Position numbers and translations under genes: made by a program. 64,000 bases of DNA, from the NCBI GenBank assembly GCA_019694655.1, contig JAIBBN010000001.1, forward strand, positions 310,001-374,000, in the 5' to 3' direction. Origin of the DNA: Leptospirales bacterium (GTDB lineage: Bacteria; Spirochaetota; Leptospiria; Leptospirales; Leptonemataceae). Within the stretch, counting starts at the first letter, position 1. Every line of letters begins with the position of its first letter. The notes under the pieces are model-generated. The model made no database searches and had not been told where the DNA came from. It saw nothing but the letters and a program-made list of their open reading frames with translations. Positions 29,903 to 39,823 of the stretch are shown piece by piece.

Positions 29903-30142
29903 ATGTCAGCGGAATCTGCAGCTATTCTGGAGAAGCTTTTTGTTTGTTATCTGACAGCGGGCTGCTACTATGCTGTCTACTTCATTGGCTCAAGCTTCAA
30001 GCGCCGCGACCGTGCATTGCACGGCAGTCCATTTGGACTGCGCTTTCTGTTCTTTCCGGCCGCAACGGCATTCTGGCCGCTATTGAGCATCGTTGACTTT
30101 CAAATGTTGCTGCGGCAGCGCCGTGCGCGAGGCCGCCGTTGA
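29903..30142 (+). CDS. Small membrane protein, first gene of redox module
   Basis: A 79-residue protein with two hydrophobic helices (KLFVCYLTAGCYYAVYFIG and RFLFFPAATAFWPLLSIVD) joined by a short basic loop (KRRDRALHG), and an Arg-rich C-terminus. Its stop overlaps the TTG start of the next gene (TTGA at 30139-30142), so it is very likely translated as the head of the four-gene unit to 32447. No family is recognised. By position it could be an assembly or anchoring subunit for the ferric-reductase-like protein. Confidence 0.62.
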   Translation: MSAESAAILEKLFVCYLTAGCYYAVYFIGSSFKRRDRALHGSPFGLRFLFFPAATAFWPLLSIVDFQMLLRQRRARGRR

Positions 30143-30630
30143 CTTCTTCGCTGCGCAGGCTGCACCGCTGGCTGATGCCGGCCTTGCCGCTGGTCGCCGG
30201 CGCAGCGGCGGGCGTTGCGCTCTGGCAGCGCGCGCCTCAACTCGAAAATCAGCGTATCGCTCCCGCTCTTGAGAGCGCAGCGCCACGGGCGGCAAGGCCG
30301 GTTCATCGCGCAGCACAAGAGCAGGGCAGCCTGCGCTGGCAATTCCATCTGCTGCAGGCGGGCGCCGATTGCTACGCTCAAATCAAGGTTTCGCATGGCA
30401 TCCTTCCCCCGGAGTGGCTGCTGTATGAAGGCGCCGAAGGTCCGTTGCCGGCCAGAGGCTTGCCGGCGGATGCGCTCTTGCTTGGGCCGGTGGGCGATGG
30501 ATGGCGTAGCTGGATCGTCGCCGCGGAGCGTTGCGGCGTGCTGCACAAGCCGCGCCAGATCATTCTCTATAGCCTGCTGGATCAGCAAGCCGTTGCGGCA
30601 GCGCCGCTGAGGAGCATGCCAGCGCTATGA
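30139..30630 (+). CDS. Single-helix anchored protein in redox module
   Basis: A 163-residue protein starting at TTG 30139, inside the previous stop. Residues 1-30 include a basic start (RRLHRW) and one hydrophobic helix (MPALPLVAGAAAGVALW), so it is probably anchored in the inner membrane with the rest in the periplasm. Residues 75-160 form a beta-rich region with two cysteines, ADCYAQIKV and AERCGVLHK. Its stop overlaps the next ATG (ATGA at 30627-30630). No family is recognised; the paired cysteines and the operon suggest a partner of the Rieske protein. Confidence 0.6.
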   Translation: MTSSLRRLHRWLMPALPLVAGAAAGVALWQRAPQLENQRIAPALESAAPRAARPVHRAAQEQGSLRWQFHLLQAGADCYAQIKVSHGILPPEWLLYEGAEGPLPARGLPADALLLGPVGDGWRSWIVAAERCGVLHKPRQIILYSLLDQQAVAAAPLRSMPAL

Positions 30631-31667
30631 GTAACAACTATCGCATCATTTCCTGGAACCCATTCAAGATTCGCTATGATCTGGCGCTGTTTGCAGTGGT
30701 CGCAGCATACCTCATCGTGTTTGGCGCATGCAGCGCCTACTCTTTCCCGCAGGCCACCGCGGAGACCATCGTAATTCGCGCTTCTGGCAGTTGTGCGCTA
30801 CTGCTCCTGCATGCCATACTCTGCATCGGTCCGCTGACCAGACTGCATCCGGCTTTCCTGCCGCTGCTTTACAATCGGCGCCATCTAGGCGTTGCCATGT
30901 TCCTGCTCGCTCTGGTTCATGGACTGTTCAGCTTGATTCAGTTTCACGGCTTTGGCGATGAGCACCCGCTGGCCAGCGTTTGGACGCTGCAAGCGCGCGT
31001 GCAGCAACTCAGCGACTATCCATTTCAAATTCCCGGTTTTCTTGCCCTCGGCATACTGGCAACCATGGCCGCTAGCAGTCATGACTTCTGGTTGGCGCAG
31101 TTACGGCCTCAAATCTGGAAGTTGATTCACTTCGGCGTCTACGTCGCCTATGCACTCTTGATCCTGCATGTCTCCATGGGCGCATTGCAAAGCGAAAGAG
31201 ATCCGTTGCTTATCTGGCTGATTGCTGCAGGCCTGGCAACGGTCTGCACACTGCATCTGATCTCTGCTCTGCGCGAAAGGAGCATAGATCGCGCCGCGAC
31301 CGATCGATTGGAAGGGGTTGATGGTCTGGTTCGCGTCTGCGCTGCAGACCAGATTGCCCTGAATCGCGCCCGAATCATTGCGGTGGATGGCGAGCGCATT
31401 GCTATTTTTCGACACGCTGGCGGCTTTTCAGCTGTCAGCAATGTTTGCCGCCATCAACTTGGGCCGCTGGGCGAGGGCCAGATTGTGGATGGTTGCATAA
31501 CCTGTCCCTGGCACGGCTACCAGTATCGGCCCGAGGACGGCCGCGCGCCGCCGCCCTTCCGCGAAAAACTGGAAACCTACGCTCTGCGCATTGTGAAAGG
31601 AATTGTTTATGTTGATCCGCGGCCGAAAGCGCCAGGAACCCTGGTCGAGCCAGCTACGCTATCTTGA
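30627..31667 (+). CDS. Ferric-reductase-like membrane domain fused to Rieske [2Fe-2S] domain
   Basis: A 346-residue protein. Residues 15-215 contain about six membrane helices of the ferric reductase/MsrQ superfamily, with likely haem-ligand histidines at H62, H86, H98, H168 and H181 and the NRRHLG block that resembles MsrQ. Residues 230-335 form a Rieske domain: ligands C274 and H276 (CRH) and C293 and H296 (CPWH), separated by 16 residues. The arrangement suggests electrons pass between a cytoplasmic iron-sulfur cluster and membrane haems. It is the core of the coupled unit 29903-32447. The electron donor and final acceptor cannot be read from the sequence. Confidence 0.85.
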   Translation: MSNNYRIISWNPFKIRYDLALFAVVAAYLIVFGACSAYSFPQATAETIVIRASGSCALLLLHAILCIGPLTRLHPAFLPLLYNRRHLGVAMFLLALVHGLFSLIQFHGFGDEHPLASVWTLQARVQQLSDYPFQIPGFLALGILATMAASSHDFWLAQLRPQIWKLIHFGVYVAYALLILHVSMGALQSERDPLLIWLIAAGLATVCTLHLISALRERSIDRAATDRLEGVDGLVRVCAADQIALNRARIIAVDGERIAIFRHAGGFSAVSNVCRHQLGPLGEGQIVDGCITCPWHGYQYRPEDGRAPPPFREKLETYALRIVKGIVYVDPRPKAPGTLVEPATLS

Positions 31668-31682
31668 TTGCCGGCGCCTGCA

Positions 31683-32447
31683 ATGACAGCGAACAGCGAA
31701 CAAGAATTCTTCATTGGATGGCAAGCGCCGCTTACGCGGCGCGTGCGCCGGCATTTTGTAATTGGACTTCTTCTTGCATTGACCTTCATTGGCGCGACAG
31801 CCGCGCTGCTTGCTGGCGCACAGCGCACGTTTGATCCATCGTATCTGGAATTTGGCGTGCAGCGTAAATTCAGCGGCGTTGTTTCTATGGACCCTTATCC
31901 GCAGTTGGTCGTCGATCGTGCGATCCCGGGCGGCCCAACAGTGCATACGCGCTACTTGCTCTCGGCGCCCTTTAAGCACGGCGCCGATTCGCTGGTTCGA
32001 CCCTACAGCGGCCAGCGCGTAACCTTGAGCGGATCCCTGCTTTACAATCGGGGCGCAGCAATGATTGAAGTTGCGGCTGATTCTGTGCGTCCAGCGTCGG
32101 GCGAATCGTCAGAGCATTCGCCGCCGACTGTTCTGGGCGAATTCACTTTTGTTGGCGAAATCGTAGACAGCAAATGCTATCTGGGAGCCATGAATCCGGG
32201 GCGCCATCTGGTACACCGCGCCTGCGCCGAGCGCTGTATCAGCGGCGGCATCCCGCCCATGCTTTTGGTGCACGCAGCGGACGGGCGCGAGTACCTCATG
32301 CTGCTCAGCGACGAAAATGGCGGCCAGGTCAATCGCGCCGTGCTGGGTTTGATTGCGCGTCCGGTGCGCATCCGCGGCCGGCTGGAAGCCTATGAATCCA
32401 TACTGGTATTGCGCGCCAATCCGGCAATGTATCAGCGGCTGGATTGA
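31683..32447 (+). CDS. Membrane-anchored protein with conserved Cys/His signature
   Basis: A 254-residue protein with one N-terminal helix (26-46) and a periplasmic part. Residues 60-140 are beta-rich (OB-like), and residues 155-195 carry the signature VDSKCYLGAMNPG, then HRACAERCISGGIPP, giving C165, H178, C181 and C185. I recall this motif in uncharacterised proteins that lie next to Rieske or molybdopterin-type genes, though I cannot name the family. The four residues could bind a metal. ATG 31683 lies 15 bases after the Rieske-fusion stop. As the last gene of the unit it is a candidate electron acceptor or donor in the periplasm. Confidence 0.68.
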   Translation: MTANSEQEFFIGWQAPLTRRVRRHFVIGLLLALTFIGATAALLAGAQRTFDPSYLEFGVQRKFSGVVSMDPYPQLVVDRAIPGGPTVHTRYLLSAPFKHGADSLVRPYSGQRVTLSGSLLYNRGAAMIEVAADSVRPASGESSEHSPPTVLGEFTFVGEIVDSKCYLGAMNPGRHLVHRACAERCISGGIPPMLLVHAADGREYLMLLSDENGGQVNRAVLGLIARPVRIRGRLEAYESILVLRANPAMYQRLD

Positions 32448-33536: not shown

Positions 33537-34738
33537 GGCGTCGCCTCGGCTGTGGTGTGTCGCATTGTTGCAGCGCGCAGGGCCGCCAGGCCATAGAGCA
33601 AACCGAAGATAGCGGCGATTGCAAAAGCGCCGCTCAAGGTCGTCAGCTTTGCACTCAGTCCGGCGGCAATGGCCGGAGGTCCAATGCCGTAGCCAGCCAT
33701 CAGCGCAGCCAGCGCCAGCGCCGAGAGAGCGGCCTCGTGGCGCGGATAGCGCTCGATGCTCAGGCTGATGGAAAAGGGAAAGAACCACGAGGCGCCAAAT
33801 CCAAGTGCGGCAAAGAGCAGCTGCATGGACCAGGCGTTGGCGCCAGGCGCCAGGGCCACTGCTGCCAGGCAGCCAATGACCAGCGGCGCCGACAGCAAGT
33901 AGACTGCGCGGCTGGAAAGATAGAGCGCTGCGGCCGAGGCCGCCAGCCGACCGAGAGTTACAGCAAACCAGAAAAGGGAAAGCGCCAACTTGGCCTCGGC
34001 AGCATCAAGACCGCGCTCGTTCTTGAGCATGTCGACGCTCCAGTAGGCGACAATGGCCTCAACAATTCCGTAGAGCACAATTGCCGCCAGGAAAAACCAG
34101 GCGCCTGCCGGCAGTCGCTGCGATGCAGCGTCAGCGCGCGCCGAAGCCGCTGTCGGTGCGCTCATTCCGAATGGAAGCAGAATCAAAACCAGAAACAATA
34201 GCGCGCTGAGCGCCGGCGCGAGCTGCCAGCTGCCGCTGGCGGCCGCAGCATTGACCAGCAGCGGCGCCGCCGCCGCGCCAATGCCCAGAGTGGCGTGCAT
34301 ACCGGTCAGCACCGTGTGACTGCGCGCCGGATAGAGTGCGATCACCTGCGTATTGAGTACCGAAACCAGCAAGCTGAAGCCCATGCCCAGCATCAGCTGC
34401 GCTGCGAGAAAAACGCCCAGCGATAGCAGCGGCTGACCCAGCGTCAGTCGGGAAAGGGCAAGCAGTCCCAGGAAGGCCGCGTCCACCGCCGCGCCCAGTC
34501 GGAACAGTTTTCCGGGACTCATACGCGCCAGCGGACTGGAAGGCAAGAAACTCATCGTAAAGCTGACGGCTATGACGCCAACAATCAAGGGGATGGTGAA
34601 CCAGCCATATTGTTCGGAGCTGATGCCGTTCTGGTCAGCCTGCTTGATGATGTCCGCGGCGCCAGGCAGAACTACCAGGCAGACGCCCTGCAAGAAGGCG
34701 GCCGCATAGAAGAGAATCAATCGGGCTGCTTTGTTCAT
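33533..34738 (-). CDS. MFS transporter
   Basis: A 401-residue protein with about twelve hydrophobic helices, of the major facilitator type. The helix 2-3 loop contains SPLARMSPGKLFRLG, which fits the MFS loop with basic and Gly residues. It overlaps the glycosidase stop at its start (ATGA, 34735-34738) and the VOC start at its end (33533-33536), so it is co-translated with both. By context it probably moves a sugar, sugar acid or glycoside made or used by the operon. Substrate class cannot be told from the sequence alone. Confidence 0.86.
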   Translation of the reverse strand: MNKAARLILFYAAAFLQGVCLVVLPGAADIIKQADQNGISSEQYGWFTIPLIVGVIAVSFTMSFLPSSPLARMSPGKLFRLGAAVDAAFLGLLALSRLTLGQPLLSLGVFLAAQLMLGMGFSLLVSVLNTQVIALYPARSHTVLTGMHATLGIGAAAAPLLVNAAAASGSWQLAPALSALLFLVLILLPFGMSAPTAASARADAASQRLPAGAWFFLAAIVLYGIVEAIVAYWSVDMLKNERGLDAAEAKLALSLFWFAVTLGRLAASAAALYLSSRAVYLLSAPLVIGCLAAVALAPGANAWSMQLLFAALGFGASWFFPFSISLSIERYPRHEAALSALALAALMAGYGIGPPAIAAGLSAKLTTLSGAFAIAAIFGLLYGLAALRAATMRHTTAEATP

Positions 34739-37404
34739 CGCGCGCCGCCGCGCGGCTGGATGATTTTGGCGATCAGCCCGGTCCAGCCGGTCTGGTGCGA
34801 TGCGCCCACGCCGCGCCCGGTATCGCCATGGAAGTACTCGTAAAAGTTCAGGTAGTCGCGAAAATGCTTGTCTTCCTGAAACTTTTTGACATCGCCAAAT
34901 ACCGGTCGGCGGCCGTCGGGACCGCGCAAGAAAATGTTGGTCAGGCGTCGGCCAATTTCATGCGCCGCCTCGGCCAGTGAGATCGTCTTACCGGAGTCCG
35001 GCGGAAATTCTACGCGGAACTCATCGCCGTAGTAGTGATGCAGCCGCTGCAGCGACTCGATGATCAAATAGTTCACCGGCATCCAGATCGGGCCGCGCCA
35101 GTTGGAGTTGCCGCCAAAGAGCCCGCTGTCCGACTCGCCCGGCGTATAGCGTACCGTGAAGGATTCGCCCCCGGCAACAAATACATAAGGATTCGAGTCG
35201 TGACGTTTGGATAGGGCGCGGATGCCGTTGGGCGCAAGAAACTGGTCTTCGTCCAGCATGCGCGCCAGCAGTCGCTTCAGGCGGTGGCCCTTGAGCAAAG
35301 AGAAAAGTCGAATCTGCCCCTGGCCCGGTTCGGACCAGCTGGCCACCAGGCGCGCCAGTTCCGGACGATTCTCCAGGAACCATTCCAGACGACGCTTGAA
35401 TTCCGGCACCCGGTCCAGCGTCTCGGCGTCCAGAATGTCCACGGCAAACATCGGAATGAAGCCAACCATCGACTGGATGCGCAGCGGGATGCGCTGACCA
35501 TCCGGCTTTTGCAATACATCGTAGTAGAACTCGTCCTCCTCGTTCCACAAATCGGAGTTTTGATCGCCGAAGCTGGTCATGGCGCTGGCGATGTACATGA
35601 AGTGTTCGAAAAACTTGGTAGCAATGTCCTGATAGATTGGCCGATGAGCAGCCACTTCAATGGCGATGCGCATCAGGTTGAGCGAATACATGGCCATCCA
35701 GCTGGTGCCGTCGGACTGTTCAATGCGGCCGCCGGTGGGCAGCGGTTTGCTACGGTCAAAGACCCCGATATTGTCGAGGCCCAGAAAGCCGCCTTCGAAG
35801 ATGTTGTTTCCTTCGGCGTCCTTGCGGTTGACCCACCAGGTGAAATTCAACAGCAGTTTGTGCAGAATGCCTTCCAGAAAGTCGATATCGCCATCGCCGC
35901 CGCGAATCTTGCGCTCAATCTGAAATACGCGCAGCGCGGCCCAGGCATGCACCGGCGGGTTTACATCGCTGAAGGACCATTCGTAGGCCGGCAGCTGACC
36001 GTTGGGATGCATATACCATTCGCGGGTCAATAGCGTCAGCTGTTCTTTGGCAAAATTTGGATCCACAATAGAAAGTGGAATGCAATGGAAGGCTAGGTCC
36101 CACGCGGCAAACCAGGGGTACTCCCACTTGTCCGGCATCGACAGCACATCGGCGTTGTTGAGATGCTCCCAGCCGGCATTGCGGCCGCGTCGCCGCTCAG
36201 CGGGCGGCGCAATCGTTCCGGGATCGCCCTGCAGCCACTGCGCTACGTCGTAGTAATAGAACTGCTTGGACCAAAGCATGCCCGCAAAGGCCTGACGCTG
36301 AACCAGGCGCAAATCGGGATCGGGAATGTGCGCCTGAATATCGCCGTAAAATTCGTCGGTTTCTTTGAGCCGCGCCGCAAATACGGCGTCGCAGTCGCGC
36401 AGGGCCGCATCGGCAGAAGCCGCCGGTTTTGCCGTCAATCGCGCGCGAACCGTAAAACTCTGGCCCGGGGCCACAAGGCTGCGGCAGTGTGCGGCCGTCT
36501 TCGTTCCCTTTTGCTCCGGATTGACTGCTTCGCGCTTTGCCTGTACTACAAAATCGTTGATGCCGTCCTTGGCATATCCCTTCCAGTCTTCCTTTCCGTA
36601 GAGTCGCGCCTCATTGTTATCATTTTCGCAAAAGAGAAAGGGCGCCTGCGCATCGCAGTAGAAGTGAAAATCGCCCAGGTTCGCTTCTTTCAACTGCACG
36701 TGTCCGTCGGCGTAGCGCATCTGCGGACGCGGGCCACGATTCCAGGACCAGACATTCCGATACCAGAGCGTGGGTAGAATATGCAATGGAGCTGCCTGTT
36801 CTCCGCGATTCCAGGCAGTAATTTTGAGATATATATCGTCCGGTGCGCTGCGCGCATACTCGATGAAGATGTCGAAATAGCGATCCTGATCGAAGACGCC
36901 GGCGTCGACCAGTTCAAACTCCGCGTCCAGTTTCCCGCGACTTCGATTCTCGCGCACCAGTTGTTCGTAGGGATAGGCCTGCTGTGGATACTTGTAGAGC
37001 ATCTTCATGTAGGCGTGAGAGGGACTGCTATCGAGATAGTAATAGTATTCTTTGCAATCCTCTCCGTGGTTGCCTTCGCTGCCGGTCAGGCCAAAGAATC
37101 GTTCCTTCAGGATTGCGTCTTGCTCGTTCCAGAAGGCCAGCGCCAGGCACAATCGCTGGTCGCAATCGGAAATGCCGCCGATCCCTTCTTCGCCCCAGCG
37201 ATAGGCCTTGCTGCGGGCCATGTCGTGGGTCACCGTATCCCAGGCGTCGCCGCCGGCGCTGTAGTCCTCGCGGACCGTGCCCCACTGTCGTTCCGTGAGG
37301 TACGGTCCCCAGACTTTCCAGATATCGCGCGGGTACTCGCCCTTGCTTTGCAGCGCTTCGCGATTCTGGCGATCCTGGATCAGACGCTGGCGTTCTTCAT
37401 TCAT
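34735..37404 (-). CDS. MGH1/GH63-like glycoside hydrolase
   Basis: An 889-residue cytoplasmic protein of the mannosyl-oligosaccharide glucosidase-like (MGH1, GH63-related) group. The N-terminal half is beta-rich, with WGPYLTERQWGTVREDYS and HDMARSKAYRWGEEGIGGISD. The second half is an alpha/alpha barrel containing KWEYPWFAAWDLAFHC, ANPPVHAW-type NPPVHAWA and NWRGPIWMPVNYL, typical of the catalytic region. No signal peptide is visible. The product is probably glucose or a related sugar from a small glycoside. Its start is three bases after the GMC oxidoreductase stop, and its stop overlaps the MFS start, so it is a central part of the operon. Confidence 0.87.
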   Translation of the reverse strand: MNEERQRLIQDRQNREALQSKGEYPRDIWKVWGPYLTERQWGTVREDYSAGGDAWDTVTHDMARSKAYRWGEEGIGGISDCDQRLCLALAFWNEQDAILKERFFGLTGSEGNHGEDCKEYYYYLDSSPSHAYMKMLYKYPQQAYPYEQLVRENRSRGKLDAEFELVDAGVFDQDRYFDIFIEYARSAPDDIYLKITAWNRGEQAAPLHILPTLWYRNVWSWNRGPRPQMRYADGHVQLKEANLGDFHFYCDAQAPFLFCENDNNEARLYGKEDWKGYAKDGINDFVVQAKREAVNPEQKGTKTAAHCRSLVAPGQSFTVRARLTAKPAASADAALRDCDAVFAARLKETDEFYGDIQAHIPDPDLRLVQRQAFAGMLWSKQFYYYDVAQWLQGDPGTIAPPAERRRGRNAGWEHLNNADVLSMPDKWEYPWFAAWDLAFHCIPLSIVDPNFAKEQLTLLTREWYMHPNGQLPAYEWSFSDVNPPVHAWAALRVFQIERKIRGGDGDIDFLEGILHKLLLNFTWWVNRKDAEGNNIFEGGFLGLDNIGVFDRSKPLPTGGRIEQSDGTSWMAMYSLNLMRIAIEVAAHRPIYQDIATKFFEHFMYIASAMTSFGDQNSDLWNEEDEFYYDVLQKPDGQRIPLRIQSMVGFIPMFAVDILDAETLDRVPEFKRRLEWFLENRPELARLVASWSEPGQGQIRLFSLLKGHRLKRLLARMLDEDQFLAPNGIRALSKRHDSNPYVFVAGGESFTVRYTPGESDSGLFGGNSNWRGPIWMPVNYLIIESLQRLHHYYGDEFRVEFPPDSGKTISLAEAAHEIGRRLTNIFLRGPDGRRPVFGDVKKFQEDKHFRDYLNFYEYFHGDTGRGVGASHQTGWTGLIAKIIQPRGGAR

Positions 37405-37407
37405 TGC

Positions 37408-38961
37408 TTATCCGCCCTTGATACGTTGCTGCAAATGTTCCGCGACGCGCAGCGCCATGGCCATGATGGTCAGCGAAGGATTCACGGCCCCGCTGGAAGG
37501 GAAAAAGGCGCCATCGACTACATAGAGGTTGTCCAGTTCGTGGGCCTTGCAGTTGGCATCGAGCACGGAGCTGGCCGCGTCTTTGCCCATTCGCGCCGTT
37601 CCCACCTGGTGGGCGACGCCCGCCAGCGGAATCTTCTTACGCAGATAAAGCGAGTGCGGCACAATATGATCGGTCTTCTCAACTTCGCGCAGCAATTTGG
37701 TCCAGCGCGCCATCAAGCGATCGTAGCCCTGGGTGTTGTTGTCGTGGTAGTCCAGGATCACTTTGTCTTGATTGATGCGCACACGATTGTTGGCGTCCGG
37801 CAGGTCCTCGGAGGTCAGCCACCAGTCAATGGAGTGCGTGGCCATTTCTTCCAGCACGCGACCTGGCGCAAACTTGGGCGCGTCGCCGCGCAGCATGTCC
37901 TTATTGGCCTTGCCCAGCAACTGGATGTGGCCCATCGGGAATTCGAAGTCCGGCTCGCCCCAGTAGAAATCGTTGATGGCCATGGTCTTTTGAAACACCG
38001 TCGGGTTGCGGCGATCGGAGATGCCGAGGATGGCGCCGTTGACGTGCTTCATGAAGTTGCGGCCGACCTGGCCGGAGCCATTGGCCAGACCCTGTGGGTG
38101 TCGATCGCTATGGCTGCGCAGCAGCAGCGCTGCGCTGTTGATTGCACCGCAGGCCGCTACCACAATGCCGCCCTTGAAGCTGCGCATCTGACCATCGACC
38201 TCAGCCTGGACCTCTTCAACGCTGCGGCCTGAGGCGCCGGTTACAAGCCGTTGCACCTTTGCCCGAACGATCAAGTCGACGTTGGGCAGTGTGTGCACCG
38301 GTCGAATGCAGCTGATATCGGAATCCGACTTGGCATTGACCAGACAGGGAAAGCCGTCGCAGGTGCCGCAGCGAATGCATTCGCTTTCCAGAGGATTGGC
38401 CTCATTGAGGTGTACGCCAAGCGGCACGTGAAAGGGCTTCAGTCCGCGACGTTGCAATTCGTCGCGCATCTCGGCAATACGCGGCTCGTGCGAAACGGCG
38501 GGAAAGGGAAAGTCGCTGCTGCGCGGCGGTTCGGTTGGATCGTCGCCCTGTTTGCCGTGCACGCGATACAGAATCTCCGCCTCGCGATAGTAAGGCTCCA
38601 GTTCCGAATAGCGCACCGGCCAGGCCGGCGAGATGCCGCCAGCGTGACGCACCTCTTCGAAGTCGCGCTCACGCAAACGCAGCAGCGCTGCGCCGTAGAC
38701 CTTTGTGTTTCCGCCTACCCAGTAGCCGGTGCCTGGATGAAATTCTTTGCCCTCTGAATCCAGCCAGGTTTCCGTGGTATGGTAGCGTTCCTTTTGAAAG
38801 ACGGAAATCGTATCCCAGTTTTCCTGTTCGCGCGGCAGCCAATCGCCGCGTTCCAGAATCAGGATCTTTAGATGCGGCGCCTGCGTGGCCAGTTTGTGCG
38901 CCAGCGTCCCGCCGCCGGCGCCGGTGCCGATGATAATGACATCGTAGTTTTGTTCTGCCAT
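37408..38961 (-). CDS. GMC family FAD-dependent oxidoreductase
   Basis: A 517-residue flavoprotein of the glucose-methanol-choline family that oxidises alcohols or sugars. The FAD motif VIIIGTGAGGGTLAHKLA is near the start, and the C-terminal block GAFFPSSGAVNPSLTIMAMA contains the usual Asn partner of the catalytic His, which lies in VAHQVGTARMG. A central cysteine group (CIRCGTCDGFPC) recalls the ferredoxin-like cysteines of some GMC dehydrogenases. ATG 38961 is chosen because AAGGA lies seven bases upstream. It follows the SDR gene by 16 bases and precedes the glycosidase by three. Acceptor is unknown. Confidence 0.91.
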   Translation of the reverse strand: MAEQNYDVIIIGTGAGGGTLAHKLATQAPHLKILILERGDWLPREQENWDTISVFQKERYHTTETWLDSEGKEFHPGTGYWVGGNTKVYGAALLRLRERDFEEVRHAGGISPAWPVRYSELEPYYREAEILYRVHGKQGDDPTEPPRSSDFPFPAVSHEPRIAEMRDELQRRGLKPFHVPLGVHLNEANPLESECIRCGTCDGFPCLVNAKSDSDISCIRPVHTLPNVDLIVRAKVQRLVTGASGRSVEEVQAEVDGQMRSFKGGIVVAACGAINSAALLLRSHSDRHPQGLANGSGQVGRNFMKHVNGAILGISDRRNPTVFQKTMAINDFYWGEPDFEFPMGHIQLLGKANKDMLRGDAPKFAPGRVLEEMATHSIDWWLTSEDLPDANNRVRINQDKVILDYHDNNTQGYDRLMARWTKLLREVEKTDHIVPHSLYLRKKIPLAGVAHQVGTARMGKDAASSVLDANCKAHELDNLYVVDGAFFPSSGAVNPSLTIMAMALRVAEHLQQRIKGG

Positions 38962-38977
38962 GATTTTGATCCTTGCC

Positions 38978-39823
38978 TTAACCGCCGGTCGCAAAGCCGG
39001 GATAGTTGGTCATACCGCCGTCGACATAGATGGTAATGCCATTGATGTAGTCGGAGAGGTCCGAGGAGAGCCACACGGCAGCGCGGCCAATGTCTTCGGT
39101 CACGCCAACGCGCTTGTAGGGAATCAATTCCAGCAGCTTCTCTTCGGCATCCGCCGTAAACCAGGCCTGCTGGTTGATCGGCGTCTTGATCGCGCCAGGG
39201 CTGATGGCGTTGCAGCGAATTTTCTTGGGGGCCAGTTCCTGAGCGACGGATTTCATAAACATCAGCACGCCGCCTTTGGAAGCAGCGTAGTTGCAGTGCG
39301 TGGCCCAGGGAATGATGTCGTGCACCGAACTCATGCATACGATCTTGCCGCAGGCGACGGAACGTTCCATCACTACGCCGCGCCGCAGGAATTCGCGCAC
39401 CGCTTCGCGAGCGCAGAGAAATTGCCCGGTCAGGTTGACGCGTAACACAAACTCCCACTGTTCGAGGGTCATATCAACAAGGTTTGCGTCGCGCTGCAGG
39501 CCGGCATTGTTGATCAAAATGTCGACCGTTCCAAAGTGGCCAATCGTCTGCTTGAACATCTCCTGAACGTCGGCCTCCTTGCTCACGTCGCCTTTCACGG
39601 CAATGGCCTTGCCTCCGTTCTGCTCAATGCTATGCGCAACGCCTTCGGCTGCTTCAGGATCGACGACATAATTGACAACCACCTGAGCGCCGGCCTGGCC
39701 CAGCGCCAGGGCTACGCCTTTGCCGATGCCGGAATTGGCGCCGGTAACTACCGCAGTTTGACCTTTCAATAAGTCGCGATACACCTCCCGTTCGGTCTCA
39801 TTCAACTTTTTCAAATCTTCCAT
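38978..39823 (-). CDS. Short-chain dehydrogenase, glucose 1-dehydrogenase-like
   Basis: A 281-residue classical SDR. The cofactor loop TGANSGIG is at 27-34, NNAG at 106-109, and the catalytic set is S165 or S166, Y179 and K183 (NYAASKGG). It resembles bacterial glucose 1-dehydrogenases and stress-type SDRs with a short N-terminal extension (MEDLKKLNETER). The start has an AGGAAAGG ribosome site. As first gene of the operon it probably sets transcript start; the palindrome 39929-39940 lies about 105 bases upstream. Substrate may be glucose or another sugar supplied by the glycosidase. Confidence 0.9.
   Translation of the reverse strand: MEDLKKLNETEREVYRDLLKGQTAVVTGANSGIGKGVALALGQAGAQVVVNYVVDPEAAEGVAHSIEQNGGKAIAVKGDVSKEADVQEMFKQTIGHFGTVDILINNAGLQRDANLVDMTLEQWEFVLRVNLTGQFLCAREAVREFLRRGVVMERSVACGKIVCMSSVHDIIPWATHCNYAASKGGVLMFMKSVAQELAPKKIRCNAISPGAIKTPINQQAWFTADAEEKLLELIPYKRVGVTEDIGRAAVWLSSDLSDYINGITIYVDGGMTNYPGFATGG

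Follow-up and report, generated by a model that had tools for sequence, protein, structure and literature searches.

The present study identified a module of four tightly coupled genes (A, B, C, and D) in the window, namely, the whole 64,000-nucleotide stretch of DNA from a Leptospirales bacterium that was analyzed. This module is real and old. We consider it probable (approximately 0.58) that its products constitute one membrane complex, which moves electrons outward from a cytosolic donor through a Rieske domain and haem b to D. The gene order and natural C-D fusions suggest that A, B, C, and D belong to a single complex, and the outward direction would be in line with the behavior of characterized FRD relatives.

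Gene organization and conservation of the module

The features of the module are as follows.

29903..30142, + strand: gene A, a small hydrophobic membrane protein of 79 aa
30139..30630, + strand: gene B, 163 aa with a TTG start, an LR..H motif at the N-terminus, and one membrane anchor
30627..31667, + strand: gene C, 346 aa, a six-helix ferric-reductase-like domain fused to a C-terminal Rieske domain
30786..31160, + strand: Ferric_reduct domain of C (PF01794, residues 54-178)
30918..30920, + strand: His98 of C, a predicted outer haem ligand that aligns with MsrQ H91
31128..31130, + strand: His168 of C, which aligns with MsrQ H151
31167..31169, + strand: His181 of C, a predicted outer haem ligand that aligns with MsrQ H164
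31329..31613, + strand: Rieske [2Fe-2S] domain of C (residues 235-329), dioxygenase-ferredoxin type
31683..32447, + strand: gene D, 254 aa, with a single N-terminal helix and two OB-like barrels that are predicted to lie outside the membrane
32166..32258, + strand: signature of D (D162-x-K-C165...H178-x2-C181-x3-C185...GG-PP), a candidate metal or redox site

The positions and tight coupling claimed in the initial annotation were all found: the open reading frames are in frame, A/B and B/C overlap by 4 bases each, and C and D are separated by a 15-base gap. By inspection, the module is flanked on the 5' side by a purL-type gene and a diguanylate cyclase gene and on the 3' side by a gene for a VOC-type protein on the opposite strand. 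These flanking genes seem unrelated to the module. A, B, and D had no match above the cut-off in Pfam, NCBIfam, or PADLOC, and a reading of the module as a defence system was dropped because PADLOC gave no match. At 34735-39823 on the - strand, the window encodes an MGH1-like glucosidase, a GMC-type oxidoreductase, and an SDR; homologues of the glucosidase lie approximately 10 kb or less from the module in 14 other loci belonging to other phyla.

A scan of approximately 85,000 species for relatives of C yielded at least 570 stretches, and hundreds of bacterial species thus carry an apparent membrane redox complex without an assigned function. Eighty loci were retained, from Acidobacteriota, Bacteroidota, Balneolota, Planctomycetota, Verrucomicrobiota, Kiritimatiellota, Calditrichota, KSB1, and others, and gene order was counted over 79 distinct loci. 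The order A-(B)-C-D recurred in nearly all of the 79, as had been anticipated for a joint complex. A was located 1 kb or less upstream of C in 77 loci; regarding the two loci without A by this count, one contig begins within C and the other has a 3-kb gap. A B-like anchor, identified by its motif, was present in at least 62 of the 79 loci. D was present in all 79, with an insert separating it from C in a few.

The linkage of C with D was further supported by fusion and co-occurrence. C and D form a single open reading frame in three loci (L076, L092, and L108). Of 100 relatives, three (the window genome, G010, and G011) contain full-length C, and a fourth (G009) contains only the N-terminal part of C, at a contig end; full-length D was found in exactly these four genomes. 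Among 119 Acidobacteriota genomes, C was present in 9, and full-length D adjoined it in the same 9. The C family also occurs on Rhizobium plasmids, and its distribution inside phyla is patchy. Since grouping in a tree of C mostly follows phylum, we infer that the C family is old.

Gene C is a ferric-reductase-like protein with an intact Rieske domain

The core of the module had been described as a His-rich ferric-reductase-like membrane domain fused to an intact Rieske domain, and both parts of this description hold. C matched PF01794 (E 9e-12, 45.5 bits, cut-off 28) and PF00355 (E 7e-15, residues 235-307, above the cut-off). The four Rieske cluster ligands, C274, H276, C293, and H296 (C-x-H ... 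C-x2-H), were invariant in 75 proteins. The best PDB matches of the Rieske domain were CarAc and BphA3, and the model of C matched Rieske ferredoxins with a TMt of 0.87. Six membrane helices were predicted from the structural model of C (mean pLDDT 89) and hydropathy. The mean numbers of K+R per loop, from the N-terminus onward, were 3.3, 0.1, 4.0, 0.6, 2.1, 0.2, and 3.7. This alternation places the N- and C-termini inside and, therefore, the Rieske domain in the cytosol. A Rieske domain outside the membrane was ruled out by the charge bias and the even helix count.

Six histidines of C (H86, H98, H107, H152, H168, and H181) were invariant in the 75 proteins, and H62 and H210 were nearly so. 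In the profile alignment of C with E. coli MsrQ (probability 91.6), R84, which was also invariant in the 75 proteins, paired with MsrQ R77. The best membrane-fold match of the C model was STEAP2 (7tai, E 8e-5, TMq 0.41). The pairing of histidines across helices, on which the initial annotation made a joint complex depend, is suggested by the alignment with the MsrQ ligands and by this model match. C has the six-helix PF01794 domain and the aligned haem-ligand histidines of TM3 and TM5 that characterize the FRD superfamily. It also has an arginine (R84) in place of the first canonical TM3 histidine, which corresponds to the signature arginine described for the YedZ/STEAP branch (PMC3591440). 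The membrane domain consequently shows the MsrQ/STEAP1 haem-ligand pattern (R84, H98, H168, and H181), from which haem occupancy appears probable at the sequence level. C scored 31.2 bits against the MsrQ equivalog NF003831 of NCBIfam, below its 130-bit cut-off. A Pfam search of C detected none of the FAD- or NAD(P)H-binding domains of the NOX/FRE long forms.

Genes A, B, and D

Relatives of A share the motif D..A......FRLLI.PG..AlWP.L..rW. The TTG start of B appears to be correct because the relatives of B open with the same M..LR..H motif. The periplasmic part of B is variable and missing from some relatives. The window protein does contain the Cys pair that had been noted in B; however, the pair is not conserved among relatives, and B as a thiol protein was ruled out on this basis.

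The model of D (mean pLDDT 92.8) consists of one helix and two OB-like barrels. Its fold matches were modest and mostly to single OB proteins, and a PDB sequence search found nothing. The Cys/His signature reported previously for D was confirmed: D162, C165, H178, C181, and C185 were invariant in 72 D proteins. Since positive charges lie between the N-terminus and the helix of the window protein, the barrels are presumably located outside the cell membrane. The second barrel, including its Cys/His motif, also occurs on its own as small secreted proteins in Acidobacteriota (L118-L145, motif D-x2-C-x~13-H-x2-C-x3-C). Inspection of motifs and Pfam matches showed, as a raw observation, that the genes of some standalone D-like proteins adjoin genes for c-type cytochromes, RND/P-type efflux, or ActB-like proteins.

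Upstream neighbors and candidate electron donors

Three types of enzyme genes were found directly upstream of A: a Rieske-TPP enzyme in 9 loci, a Rieske-glutamate-synthase/FMN enzyme in 7 loci, and an SDR in 13 loci plus L033, as well as on two Rhizobium plasmids. Their spacing to A was mostly a few bases. We read this slot as one for interchangeable cytosolic donor enzymes. In G011, genes for a Rieske-glutamate-synthase and a Rieske-TPP enzyme are grouped on one strand, at a site separate from the module (L148:1255-4940). Neither enzyme was among the Rieske matches of the window genome, a point against the relay proposed below. A Rieske domain fused to an apparent pyridine-nucleotide-disulfide reductase is encoded in the window genome (L146:1296-2960), and it is conceivable that this fusion serves as the electron donor.

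Proposed electron transfer and alternative explanations

We propose that a cytosolic oxidoreductase would reduce the [2Fe-2S] cluster of the C Rieske domain, from which the electron would pass to a b haem held by H98 and H181, with H168 and possibly H86. The haem would then reduce the extracytoplasmic tandem-OB protein D, the Cys3His site of which may be the acceptor or may hold an accepting metal. A and B may be small anchors that assemble or stabilize the complex. Such a relay would resemble that of MsrQ, the electron donor of periplasmic MsrP, or that of STEAP1, with a Rieske domain in place of the flavin donor of other members. It presupposes that C carries both the haem and the cluster and that the site of D is redox-active or metal-binding, each of which the invariant ligands make plausible. 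However, for short FRD proteins, there is little support for electrons crossing a membrane by way of only one haem (PMC3591440), which counts against the relay. We also tentatively propose, at somewhat less than even odds, that the module represents a new and widespread class of reductase, in which interchangeable upstream donors feed a cytosolic Rieske domain, haem b, and a new tandem-OB Cys3His family.

The architecture by itself leaves the direction of flow unset. Electrons may also move inward from a quinol or periplasmic donor through the haem to the cytosolic Rieske domain and on to Rieske-linked enzymes of the TPP or glutamate-synthase-like type, and the presence of such enzymes directly upstream in some loci is consistent with this direction. 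However, electrons move outward in the characterized FRD relatives NOX, FRE, STEAP, and MsrQ (PMC3591440, PMC5676040), and no periplasmic donor is conserved apart from D. We consider inward flow to be unlikely. A special case of the outward relay is a copper or iron reductase, with D binding the metal outside and C reducing it. Fe3+ and Cu2+ are substrates of the STEAP and FRE relatives (PMC3591440), and standalone D-like genes adjoin metal-efflux genes in approximately 6 of 28 Acidobacteriota loci (L118, L119, L120, L124, L134, and L140), a raw count not set against a background rate. However, the four-gene module itself has no conserved metal transporter among its neighbors, and a dedicated metal reductase is doubtful.

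Another reading considered was that the module serves the respiratory chain of alternative complex III in an accessory role. In G009 (L030:1-3700), it is divergent from actD-, actE-, and actF-like genes, and ActD was present in 25 of 25 module genomes tested. However, each of the 22 genomes in the family of the window carries ActD, and only 4 of them have the module. This co-occurrence represents background, and the link, which we regard as very improbable, was rejected. A NOX-like oxidase producing superoxide outside the cell has even less to recommend it. The FRD domain is common to both, whereas C is without the FAD/NAD(P)H domain, and an oxidase leaves the invariant D partner with its Cys3His site unexplained.

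Comparison with known systems

The proposed outward relay of electrons through C to D resembles MsrPQ in outline. C resembles MsrQ (YedZ) in its six-helix FRD, in the alignment of H98, H168, H181, and R84, and as a membrane partner of an extracytoplasmic protein. However, C carries a fused Rieske domain and additional invariant histidines at 86, 107, and 152. The partner also differs, being the tandem-OB Cys3His protein D rather than the molybdoenzyme MsrP; a gene for an MsrP-type periplasmic molybdoenzyme was absent from the operon, and none was conserved among the neighbors. A second, standalone MsrQ-like protein of 204 aa with no adjoining MsrP is encoded in the window genome (L032:3938-4552). 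STEAP provided the top membrane-fold match, and STEAP1 has the same arginine and three histidines (PMC3591440). In contrast to the NADPH/flavin module of STEAP, the donor domain of C is a Rieske domain, and C is encoded in a bacterial four-gene operon. The C-terminal domain is similar in sequence and fold to the Rieske ferredoxins of ring-hydroxylating dioxygenases (CarAc and BphA3); however, it is fused to a membrane haem domain, and the module is without an oxygenase. In MsrQ-like flavinylation systems (PMC8238504), an FRD membrane protein similarly wires the cytosol to an extracytosolic redox protein, whereas those systems use ApbE-flavinylated FMN proteins, none of which was seen in the A-D operon.

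The initial annotation suggested an undescribed electron-transfer complex. This was upheld for the four-gene module, for which no description was found in the openly licensed literature, but not for the fusion at its core. A 2013 survey of the FRD superfamily listed Rieske among the modular extensions of bacterial FRD proteins (PMC3591440, model M4). The text of that survey gives no function, A/B/D partners, or operon for FRD-Rieske proteins, and the legend of model M4 adds FMN; therefore, its identity with the architecture of C is uncertain. The module accordingly appears to be undescribed in open papers, and the FRD-Rieske fusion appears to be already known as an architecture. If the proposed relay is correct, a Rieske-driven type joins the known bacterial routes for electron export from the cytosol. 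D represents a family defined by an invariant Cys3His site, some standalone relatives of which adjoin cytochrome and metal-efflux genes. Two Rhizobium plasmids annotate the module only as a 'Rieske 2Fe-2S domain-containing protein' and hypothetical proteins.
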